Positions 47,116 through 50,140 of a stretch of 64,000 bases of DNA are shown piece after piece; position 1 is the stretch's first letter; each line of letters begins with the position of its first letter. A program made the translations under genes and the position numbers. The notes beneath the pieces were generated by a model. That model was not told where the DNA came from. It searched no databases and was given only the letters and a program-made list of their open reading frames with translations. The stretch is from an uncultured Paracoccaceae bacterium. GTDB lineage: Bacteria; Pseudomonadota; Alphaproteobacteria; Rhodobacterales; Rhodobacteraceae. The stretch is from the NCBI GenBank assembly GCA_947494445.1, contig CANLVD010000003.1, positions 310,001 to 374,000 of the forward strand, written 5' to 3'.

Positions 47116-47200
<85 letters not shown>

Positions 47201-47362: not shown

Positions 47363-48388
47363 ATGCCCAGCTTCTACATCGTTGATCAAAGCCAGATCAC
47401 CAGCGCGCCTCTTGGAAACAGCAATCAAGGGAACGGCTCGCAACACAATGGCGGCTCTATCACCATTGATGCAAACGCGACGCCCGGGCTTTTGACAATC
47501 ACCGACAACAACAACGTGCTTCAGGACAATGCAAGCGCTCAGAATGTTGATGGTGACCAGACCATCGGCAGCACCTTCTACGGCGATGGCGAAAACATTC
47601 AGGCCGAGTACACGGTTGTGGTCACCGACGGCACCCAGAACTACACGCTTTACGGCATCGCGCTGGGTCCGGGTTACAGCAATGTGGTCGGTCTTGCCTT
47701 TCTGGATGAGTTTCCCCCCTTCGGGCAGGAGCTGACTGTTGTTTCAACTTCAGAAGGTCCAAATGCCGCCCGCGGCCCGACCTATGATGAACTTGCAATC
47801 TGTTTCACAACCGGCGCTCTGGTTCTCACACCAGCCGGGCCGGTCCCGATTGAAACGTTAAGCGCGGGTGATCAGGTCGTAACCCGTGATCGCGGCACGC
47901 AGGTGATCCAATGGGCCAGCGCGTCTGATTTCACTTCACAGCAGCTTGGTCTTCGACCTCATCTCGCGCCGGTCCTGATCAAACGCGGTGCCATTGCACC
48001 CGGCTCCCCTGCCCGCGACATGATCGTCTCTCCCAACCACCGGATGCTGATCAATTCCTGGCGGGCCGAGATGTTGTTCGGTGTCAAGGAAGTTCTCGTC
48101 ACCGCAAGCGCGCTCTTGAATGACACCACCGTCACGCGGCTTGGACCTGAGACCCCGGTCACCTACCGTCACATCCTGTTTGATCGCCATGAAATCATCA
48201 CGGTTGACGGCGCATCAACCGAAAGCTTCCAGCCGAGCGTGCCTGTGATAGACAGCCTGCAAGCCCAGGTCCGGGACGAGTTATTCGAGATTTTCCCGGA
48301 TCTTCGCGCCGCGCCCGACCAGATGGGCCAGACAGCGCGCCCGGTCCTGCGTGCGTCCGAAGCCCGGCTTTTGCAAGAAGCCGGTTAG
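47363..48388 (+). CDS. Hint-domain (hedgehog/intein-like) protein
   Basis: 341 aa. The N-terminal half (about 1-145) is Asn/Gly/Thr-rich, with SITIDANATPGLLTITDNNN, resembling the beta-rich part of secreted roseobacter proteins. The C-terminal half is a Hint_2-type domain starting at the nucleophile-like Cys in AICFTTGALVLTPAGPVPI and containing ETLSAGDQVVTRD, SPNHRMLINSW and RHILFDRHEIITVDGASTES (in pieces). Roseobacters carry many such proteins; a self-processing role is inferred. ATG 47363 is favoured over a start at 47297. The stop TAG lies at the edge of the inverted-repeat element. Confidence 0.88.
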   Translation: MPSFYIVDQSQITSAPLGNSNQGNGSQHNGGSITIDANATPGLLTITDNNNVLQDNASAQNVDGDQTIGSTFYGDGENIQAEYTVVVTDGTQNYTLYGIALGPGYSNVVGLAFLDEFPPFGQELTVVSTSEGPNAARGPTYDELAICFTTGALVLTPAGPVPIETLSAGDQVVTRDRGTQVIQWASASDFTSQQLGLRPHLAPVLIKRGAIAPGSPARDMIVSPNHRMLINSWRAEMLFGVKEVLVTASALLNDTTVTRLGPETPVTYRHILFDRHEIITVDGASTESFQPSVPVIDSLQAQVRDELFEIFPDLRAAPDQMGQTARPVLRASEARLLQEAG

Positions 48389-48652
48389 GCGGCGTCTGCA
48401 TTTAGCTTTCGCACTGGTTTCAGTCCAAAATTGCTCCTCGCCAGGAAACAGAGCGCAGGAATAGTGATCTATTTCAAGCTCTGATGACGCTGCGAGGGGC
48501 AATTTTGGCGAAATCCCGAAGGGACGCGACCCATTTTGTCTCTGACGGGTCGAACAGACCTTGCGATCAACCAGATCGCGGCGGTCTGTTCTCCTTGTCA
48601 GCGGCAAAATGGGACACGCGCCAGTGCGAAAGCTAAATGCAGACGCCGCCTA
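48386..48652. mobile_element. MITE-like inverted-repeat element flanked by TA
   Basis: Terminal inverted repeats at 48388-48417 and 48621-48650 are 30 bases and perfect; TA stands outside each (48386-48387, 48651-48652), giving 32 bases of symmetry. Inside are two hairpins: 48425-48441 pairs with 48492-48508 over 17 bases (one G-T), and 48529-48620 forms another. The halves are diverged inverted copies. No ORF is inside. TA duplication suggests IS630/Tc1-mariner-type mobilisation, as inference. Confidence 0.75.
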
Positions 48653-50140
48653 GGCCCATTCCCTAAAGATGCCGGGCAGTTCACCGGCCAGATCATCCGC
48701 AATCAGACCGGGTCCAAAACGTCTGGCACAGTCCACGTGCAACCAGGCGGCCGCATGTGCCGCGCCCGCGCCGAGATAACCCCGCGCCATCAACCCCGCA
48801 ATCATGCCCGCCAGCACATCGCCCGCCCCGGCCGTGGCAAGCCATGGCACGTGGCGCTCGTATCGCGCATCATTAATCACGACATGACCGGTCGCTGAGG
48901 CAATCAAGGTCACCTTTCCCTTCAACAGAACCGTACACCCTGCGCGCCGTGCCGCTGCACGGACAGCGCCAAGCCGGTCCGCACCGGCATCAAAATCAGG
49001 AAACAACCGGGCAAACTCGCCCGCATGAGGGGTCAGCACCGCCTGCCCGGGCAACATGTCAAACAGATCACTGGCGTGATTTTCGAAACAGGTCAGGCCG
49101 TCGGCATCCAGCACCAGCGCCTTGCCGCTGGTACAGGCGGCCCTGACCATGTCACGGGTCAGATCTCCACCACCATGGCCCGGACCAATGCACAGACTGC
49201 GCAGTCGGGTATCCACAAGCGCATCGTCCAGATCTGCAACTGTGGCCACTTGTCGGCTCATCAAGGCCAATGGTGTGATCGGCTGCGCAGCATCTGGCAC
49301 GCCGAGCGTGACCACACCGGCACCGATCCGCAAAGCAGCCTCCGCCGCCAAACGGGCCGCACCGGGTTTCTCGCCGCCGATGACAAGGCAGGCCCCGGCT
49401 TGATACTTATGCGTGGCGTCTTTGCGCGCAACGTGCCGGGGTGGTGTATTCAGAACCAGATTTGCGATCGGCGTGCCCGCCCGCAATCCGATGTCCACCA
49501 CGACCAACTCTCCACAAATCGGTGTAACCTCATCAATTGAAGAATTCGCGCAGAGGTAATGTCCGGGATTTGCACTGTGGAACGTGACCGTCAGATCAGC
49601 CGGCATAACATAATCCAACACCTGACCGCTGTCCGCCTGCAAGCCAGATGGAATGTCGACGGCGGCGCGAAACATTTCTCCCGCAGGCTCAGCCATAAGG
49701 CGCGCGATGTCGCGAAACTCTTCTCCCAAGGTCCGGGTCAGACCGATCCCGAAAAGAGCATCTATCACCAGATCAGCAGTACCATCAGCGAGAGCTGCAA
49801 AAGCCTGATCCAACGATCCGACATTGCCACCCCAACGCTCCCGGTTGGTCCGGGCATCGGGGGGCAATACCGCGCCCGGCGCACTGGAAAACACGGCAAC
49901 CCGCCACCCCCGATCCGCCAGCATTCGCGCGATCACATAACCGTCTCCGCCGTTGTTGCCCGGCCCGCAAAGAACCACTGCCCGCCGGGCACCGGCACCC
50001 AGGTCCGGCCGCGCCTTGAAGATCGCACCAACGACCTCAAGCCCTGCCCGCTCCATCAACTCAAGCCCACTCCAACCGCCGCCTTCCATGGCAGCCTGCT
50101 CAAGCGATTTCATCTCCTGCGCCGTCAGAACCGCGGTCAT
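48650..50140 (-). CDS. nnr: bifunctional NAD(P)HX epimerase/dehydratase
   Basis: 496 aa repairing hydrated NADH and NADPH. The N-terminal YjeF_N epimerase domain (about 1-215) has VVLCGPGNNGGDGYVIARML and DLVIDALFGIGL and AVDIPSGLQADSG. The C-terminal dehydratase/kinase-like domain has GGEKPGAARLAAEAAL, VLDADGLTCFEN, LTPHAGEFARLFPD and WLATAGAGDVLAGMIAGL. The start is ATG 50140. The stop codon TAG is formed at the edge of the MITE-like element, and the gene converges with the Hint gene. Confidence 0.95.
   Translation of the reverse strand: MTAVLTAQEMKSLEQAAMEGGGWSGLELMERAGLEVVGAIFKARPDLGAGARRAVVLCGPGNNGGDGYVIARMLADRGWRVAVFSSAPGAVLPPDARTNRERWGGNVGSLDQAFAALADGTADLVIDALFGIGLTRTLGEEFRDIARLMAEPAGEMFRAAVDIPSGLQADSGQVLDYVMPADLTVTFHSANPGHYLCANSSIDEVTPICGELVVVDIGLRAGTPIANLVLNTPPRHVARKDATHKYQAGACLVIGGEKPGAARLAAEAALRIGAGVVTLGVPDAAQPITPLALMSRQVATVADLDDALVDTRLRSLCIGPGHGGGDLTRDMVRAACTSGKALVLDADGLTCFENHASDLFDMLPGQAVLTPHAGEFARLFPDFDAGADRLGAVRAAARRAGCTVLLKGKVTLIASATGHVVINDARYERHVPWLATAGAGDVLAGMIAGLMARGYLGAGAAHAAAWLHVDCARRFGPGLIADDLAGELPGIFREWA

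Follow-up and report, generated by a model that had tools for sequence, protein, structure and literature searches.

MITEs are usually regarded as the decaying leftovers of one insertion sequence (IS). The 113-bp MITEAba12, which goes with ISAba12, illustrates how the usual MITE follows one IS, as far as the available portion of its description extends (PMC6382973). The TIMEs of Pseudomonas, which are the closest in style to the element reported here among the systems compared, are mostly 262 bp long; the part of their description that was available (PMC4133298) reports a size that is almost fixed although the core drifts, predicted RNA folds that are similar, Tn3-type termini, duplications of 5 to 6 bp, and movement that was caught in trap plasmids. 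Other intergenic repeats include the CIR elements of Caulobacter and Brucella, which are approximately 110 bp long, contain a linker and GANTC, are without terminal repeats, and have RNAs that are drawn as two-armed (PMC2229807, excerpted text), and the GTAG- and CGTC-tagged REPs, which are 20- to 40-bp palindromes that often occur as inverted pairs and bear a short unpaired tag. The authors of the REP study suggest that a wide variety of transposases may mobilise the CGTC REPs (PMC3733652, excerpted text). Among insertion sequences, members of the IS427 group in Paracoccus, such as IS1248, are 832 to 865 bp long and have overlapping frames and mostly a 2-bp duplication, according to the accessible section of PMC3281130.

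Within the window, by which we mean the whole 64-kb stretch of DNA that was analysed, positions 48386 to 48652 hold an element of the MITE kind. Like the IS5-family MITEs, it is short and transposase-free, has IS-like terminal repeats and a target duplication, and is presumed to be mobilised in trans; together with the matching empty site and the existence of several copies, these properties cover the testable defining features of a MITE, except for descent of the interior from the partner IS. Unlike the usual MITE, the element has a structured core that is found under many termini across the phylum. We consider it very probable that it is a MITE-like element that is moved in trans by an IS5-family transposase and that has a lasting folded core that is not tied to one IS.

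The element is 267 nt long when both flanking TAs are included and 263 nt long without these four target bases; no strand is assigned to the element as a whole, to its TAs, to its terminal stem, or to its small central hairpin. The left TA (48386-48387) is the target duplication, and the right TA occupies 48651-48652. Each end is an IS5-family terminal inverted repeat made up of TA and GGCGGCGTCTGCATTTA, on the plus strand at 48386-48404 and, with the same sequence, on the minus strand at 48634-48652. The inverted terminus has no mismatch in its 32 nt, TA included (30 nt without it, as in the preliminary description of a 263-bp element with TA on either side), and it forms a 32-bp terminal stem, the 5' side of which (48386-48417) is paired with 48621-48652. 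Both of the internal hairpins in that description are present: the left arm (48418-48513, plus strand; arm-model matches at 48418-48514) is a 96-nt hairpin with two conserved internal loops, and the right arm (48525-48620, minus strand) is a diverged inverted copy of it. A third, small hairpin of the CCCGAAGGG type, located at the junction between the arms (48514-48524), had been overlooked. The apical hairpin of the left arm (48455-48478, plus strand) carries the conserved motif GCAG-stem-loop-stem-CAAG.

The two halves had been recognised at the outset as diverged inverted copies, and the comparison of 61-nt arms, which are 79% complementary, bears this out; in addition, 160 of the 267 positions match the element's own reverse complement without gaps, and the arm covariance model R2, which is introduced below, scores the right arm at 62 bits on the minus strand (48524-48620). 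Nine perfect inverted pairs of 24-mers lying no more than 400 nt apart were found in the whole 64-kb window, all of them within the element. The folding energy of the element is -178.9 kcal/mol, compared with -86.8 ± 4.9 kcal/mol for shuffled sequences (n = 200; z = -19), and the opposite strand also folds strongly (z = -17). No gene is evident in the element, and a transposase gene is absent, the inner 263 nt being too short and holding mechanical ORFs only; the initial statement that there is no ORF therefore holds for genes but not for mechanical ORFs, which run across the element.

The element lies between a Hint-domain gene (PF13403; 47297-48388, plus strand) and nnr, which encodes an NAD(P)H-hydrate epimerase/dehydratase (YjeF_N and Carb_kinase; 48650-50140, minus strand), and it completes the stop codons of both. 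As had been noticed from the beginning, the Hint stop (TAG, 48386-48388) and the nnr stop (TAG, 48652-48650 read on the minus strand) are each composed of the flanking TA and the outermost G of the element. When the flanks were joined over a single TA, we reproduced the predicted arrangement, in which the Hint gene ends with TAG and nnr ends with TAA, the two overlapping on that TA. A TA-duplicating, MITE-like insertion into overlapping stop codons, as originally proposed, is now supported by the existence of other copies, by empty sites in two relatives, and by an IS with an identical terminus. The nnr gene was present in 37 of 41 genomes searched, with the window's own counted, and 30 nnr loci were fetched; a Hint match adjoins nnr in nine loci besides that of the window. 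In G001, which belongs to the same genus, as in G003, a single TA within TTAG is common to both stops, and this empty site is of the kind predicted by deleting the element and one TA. The seven other Hint/nnr loci have other spacings, and one of them, L168, is without a usable stop call; in all relatives other than G001, the Hint ends come from partial alignments that were extended to the next in-frame stop.

Very probably, an IS5-family transposase, presumably of the IS427 group, recognised the 17-nt termini in trans and inserted the element into the TA of TTAG at the overlapping Hint and nnr stops, with duplication of the TA. Because the element starts with G at either end, TAG would have been restored to both genes. 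The exact placement at two stop codons is real, but it is less special than the preliminary description implied. Of the 50 borders of 25 elements, 21 supply the end of an open frame that is 60 codons or longer, and in five elements both borders do; this set of 50 retains mis-set or mutated borders that scored nothing, namely, those of L174 and L178 (both sides) and of L029 (right). The background is similar in kind, since such a frame is also closed at 44 of 150 YTAR sites of the window. Stop-codon targeting was thus rejected as a special property: landing on a stop codon and restoring it requires no special targeting, and the placement is mostly a result of the YTAR target and the leading G of the element.

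The location between convergent genes, where both transcripts could be stopped or protected, also invites the explanation that the element is a local bidirectional terminator or an mRNA-stabilising structure that was selected at the Hint/nnr junction. However, the element gave 1 terminator-like match, compared with a mean of 0.5 in shuffled sequences, and the bidirectional terminator that had been suggested is not borne out by this result. Furthermore, R2 found no element at the Hint/nnr junction in 29 other nnr loci, its sole further hit being in G003, where it lies across the Hint gene from the junction and has another terminus, and copies are found at many unrelated places. A structure that is conserved at this locus and has no copies anywhere else is the opposite of what we observed, which is a junction that is empty in relatives and copies that lie elsewhere, and local selection at this junction is highly improbable. 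The G003 element (L145:3771-4038) is a separate element of the family with an GGGTCAAGGCCCATTAAT terminus; it is situated beside a tRNA at the far end of the Hint gene, approximately 725 bp from the site that is occupied in the window. A tRNA-Leu gene is located upstream of the Hint gene in the window (47116-47200), and the tRNA in G003 is similarly placed.

The first 19 nt of the element (TA and 17 of 17 nt) are identical to the ends of an IS5-family IS of approximately 847 bp. An exact search for TAGGCGGCGTCTGCATTTA in the contigs of 84,980 species returned 67 stretches with 70 matches, which motif rules sorted into 60 IS ends (34 left and 26 right), 6 core ends from five loci, and 4 unclear cases; the named Rhodobacteraceae that carry the window's terminus include Roseovarius, Shimia, and Sedimentitalea. 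A pyrimidine (C or T) precedes the TA in 64 of the 66 borders. Two complete IS copies with the window's terminus are 847 bp each, and the matching IS that was tested, L081, has its transposase, which is assigned to the IS5 family (NF033580; PF13340 and PF01609), in two frames that overlap. The duplicated TA is also what an IS630/Tc1-type MITE would leave, and such an origin had been suggested initially; as judged by the terminus match, this assignment is scarcely credible and was replaced, the transposase of the IS that has the identical terminus being of the IS5 family. The search that had been recommended for further copies, a single-TA empty site, and a full-length element found all three, the full-length element being of the IS5 family.

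By its size and frames, the IS with the window's terminus probably belongs to the IS427 group, which it resembles in size, in overlapping frames, in TA duplication, and in the pyrimidine before the TA, as far as these are given in the accessible section of the source cited above. The element itself differs from that group in that it has no transposase gene and in that no 11-mer of its interior recurs in the interior of either 847-bp IS copy. PF13340 was not found in the window's own genome, and no further terminus was detected there at up to 2 mismatches, a scope beyond which lie 13 places with 3 mismatches; given these two results, the window copy may be stranded. A PF13340 match is present in 7 of 12 element-bearing genomes. 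In G053 and G122, an IS end near in sequence to the local element terminus (3 of 18 mismatches) lies beside transposase genes, and G261 and G038 have more distant IS ends (5 and 5 to 6 mismatches, respectively); the PF13340-positive genomes G373, G1001, and G942 yielded no IS end that resembles the local element terminus. In G122, TAGGGTCAGGATGCATTGAT occurs at 13 places, mostly contig ends, and its continuations match plasmid sequences annotated as IS5-family transposase. Three loci, L217, L180, and L190, start with TACC rather than TAGG (TACCCAAGTAACCCC, TACCAAAGGAACCCG, and TACCAAGGTGCGG, respectively).

Two-armed elements that could be bounded are 254 to 288 nt long, a range that may include a few flanking bases; copies of 303 to 370 nt carry extra sequence, and forms of 165 to 216 nt look single-armed. 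The typical fold consists of a terminal stem of approximately 32 bp, two arms of 94 to 100 nt, and, usually, a tiny hairpin between the arms. When the fold of the window copy alone was imposed on eight full elements, 92.5% of cells were paired, compared with 34 to 41% in slid controls; 52 of 113 pairs had changed on both sides, compared with 30.1 in shuffles, and the covariation score was 0.419, compared with 0.152. In helix 1, the terminal stem, 20 of 32 pairs had changed on both sides and 93.8% of cells were paired; even in the part of this stem that lies within the IS-like terminus, the sequence varies among copies and the pairing is mostly kept. In helix 5, the small junction hairpin, 100% of cells were paired and 2 of 4 pairs had changed on both sides. 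Analysis of 14 arms, to which again only the window copy's fold was applied, gave 90.6% paired cells (31 to 52% when slid) and 22 of 38 pairs that had changed on both sides, a number that was reached by 3 of 500 shuffles, the shuffle value being 16.6. For 83 arms in an alignment that was fitted to the model, 92.8% of cells were paired (39 to 45% when slid), and 31 of 31 pairs had changed on both sides, compared with 27.8 in shuffles.

Each arm contains two internal loops, the 5' sides of which read, in shorthand, CAAGG ... GCAG and the 3' sides CAAG ... ACGC. The same letter is found in at least 80% of 62 in-class arms and of 21 outside arms at 12 columns, six of which are unpaired in the model; the out-of-class arms were chosen by a class-trained model, so the sharing of loop letters is partly selected for.

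The core is a phylum-wide structured non-coding family that is present under many different termini. DNA similarity searches detected the element in 3 of 101 relatives and in two plasmid records, from Novosphingobium and Sphingopyxis, and the apical motif was found in 4 of 394 family genomes, with 13 motif matches in G053 alone. The window's own genome contains, in addition to the window copy, a second complete copy on contig 19 that is 73% identical and one half copy. Two arm covariance models extended this range: R1, which was built from 14 arms, had matches at an E value of ≤0.001 in 9 of the 385 class genomes, and R2, for which the 44 source arm matches came exclusively from loci of the window's class, matched 32 of 394 family genomes and, at an E value of ≤1e-4, 95 of 398 sampled phylum genomes, 74 of which are outside the window's class; the model calibration was short, and these E values are therefore rough. 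Of 28 loci taken from the phylum search, 25 have an inverted terminus pair around the arm, as do 14 of the 16 among them that come from outside the window's class; at control positions within these loci, the number was 4 of 112. Because the surroundings of the arm are not used by the model, these terminus pairs provide support that is independent of R2. A later family set gave an inverted terminus pair in 18 of 19 loci with full flanks (21 loci were listed), one of the 18 being weak, and a second, inverted arm match was found at an E value of ≤0.001 in 20 of 63 loci. A plasmid of Variovorax paradoxus, one of the Betaproteobacteria by record taxonomy, is a named example from outside the class. 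The plasmid search with L215 yielded one relative (Variovorax), the remaining 20 records matching the flanking gene only; there was no match in a plasmid search with the L220 element or in an Escherichia coli search with the L207 element. The distribution of the element family is patchy.

Several copies depart from the typical form. The half copy in the window's own genome (L003:1501-1632, contig 4) is almost identical to the left half of the contig 19 copy and ends near the small hairpin. Seven R1 arm matches were found in G610, a genome of 1.5 Mb, and its versions (L176, L183, L191, L192, and L193) are 183 to 216 nt long, keep the arm and the loops, and are apparently missing the second arm. 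The copies in G053 (L009:1241-1592, L033, L036, L039, L041, and L043) are 36 to 85 nt longer and contain nested hairpin-like inserts, which interrupt the arms or the small hairpin of the junction. To the eye, some of these inserts resemble inverted pairs of CGTC-tagged REPs as depicted in the available part of PMC3733652.

Closely related cores were found under different termini. The window copy and L031 have cores that are 76% identical and termini that agree at 9 of 20 positions, and L124 and L205 have cores that are 80% identical, the terminus of L124 agreeing at 9 of 20 positions with the right end of L205 and at 8 of 20 with its left end. L199 and L141, which are carried on one Novosphingobium plasmid, have 83% identical cores and agree at 10 of 20 terminal positions. 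In the converse case, L142 and L007 share 19 of 20 terminal positions and have cores that are just 60% alike. The Novosphingobium plasmid W02 (NZ_CP141945.1) has five arm matches (L141 and L198 to L201); the termini of three of these copies, L141, L198, and L199, were read and are of two types. In a tree of 26 cores, two other terminus classes are nested inside class I, and the test against class I as a single clade was borderline (p-AU, 0.046). One origin suffices for every terminus class in this tree, in which 11 of 23 inner branches are drawn open and long branches meet. From these comparisons we infer an exchange of ends among relatives: the core would be passed on as a whole while approximately 20 nt at its outer ends change, and its relatives would consequently ride on different IS-type termini.

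These data bear on the possibility that the element is an ordinary MITE, that is, an internal-deletion derivative of one IS5-family element, the leftover interior of which folds by chance and has no function. Such a derivative would account for the terminus that is identical to that of a full-length IS, for the lack of a transposase gene, and for the TA duplication, and MITE transcripts generally form stable stem-loops, according to the excerpted texts of PMC10969869 and PMC2229807. However, the absence of any common 11-mer between its interior and those of the two 847-bp IS copies argues against this derivation, as do the narrow size range of the bounded two-armed elements (254 to 288 nt, apart from copies with extra sequence) and the conserved loop letters. 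Related cores under unrelated termini already strain an origin from one IS, and we regard the ordinary MITE as improbable; a MITE-like element whose folded core outlasts any single IS partner accounts better for these observations.

Comparison with the other known systems did not reveal an identity. On a fetched 40-kb stretch of pDC3000A, which holds an inverted-repeat pair that was taken as its 256-bp TIME, R2 gave 0 matches at an E value of ≤10, and identity with the TIMEs was rejected on the basis of this one presumed element. Identity with CIR was rejected by description, since the element is 267 nt long, has a 32-bp terminal repeat, and is free of GANTC. Both CIR and the RIME/ABC elements of rhizobia are, like the element, alphaproteobacterial intergenic repeats, a likeness that was drawn by description and not by sequence; R1 gave 0 matches on Sinorhizobium meliloti pSymB, where the presence of RIME/ABC was assumed. 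Unlike the element, REPs have neither IS5-type termini nor a four-way junction. Rfam 15 contained no match to window positions 48200 to 48850 at an E value of ≤1, and in the loci of 12 relatives it matched nothing but the neighbouring tRNA at an E value of ≤0.01. Searches of one open-access library listed no description of this core.

Why the fold has been retained is a separate question. In the proposed structure, the inner 200 nt or so would form a junction in which two inverted arms of approximately 96 nt and the small hairpin are closed by the terminal stem. The fold must matter, given that the stems are maintained by compensatory changes and that the mismatched loops stay unchanged; hairpin-templated repair can keep stems paired, but it would erase, not preserve, mismatched loops. 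Its most likely function, which we put forward tentatively, is to promote the spread of the element in cis: hairpins that extrude from either strand of the DNA would bring the two ends together, and the conserved internal loops would be where these hairpins are bound.

The fold might instead function in the transcribed RNA, although this is doubtful. In the form that we considered, which appears unlikely, read-through from either neighbouring gene would produce an RNA with a four-way junction that is processed or bound and that aids the element or protects the 3' ends of host genes. The very strong folding of both strands is consistent with this proposal, as are one pair beside the inner loop that is G-T in 54 of 83 arms and a consensus-pair count in which G-T exceeds A-C by 183 to 36, since such pairs are tolerable in RNA. 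For that count, however, the pairs were chosen on sense-strand alignments, and a symmetric wobble count that treats both strands alike gave 190 to 171 (39 arms versus 30); across both arms of 23 full elements, many of which are G053 near-copies, the count was 162 to 118. The symmetric test thus showed no clear strand preference beyond the one G-T pair, and the count of 183 to 36 was dropped as evidence for RNA. Furthermore, the arms are oppositely oriented, so that one of them is always antisense, and the element contained no promoter-like site and had no Rfam match. Since its inverted arms make the element look alike when read from either strand and the wobble count is balanced, a role in cis as DNA is slightly favoured, with an RNA role second.

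Taken together, our tentative proposal is that the unit of inheritance is the folded, two-armed core, which codes for no protein, may swap its outer 20 nt according to the resident IS5-family transposase, and may be kept because its fold drives its spread. The covariance model could annotate many unexplained intergenic repeats at once. A core that is recognisable throughout the phylum under changing termini would make some non-coding elements long-lived lineages with a functional fold, and such elements would pass between transposase families. If the core is indeed the unit that is inherited, these elements would parallel SINEs in bacteria, as parasites of other parasites.
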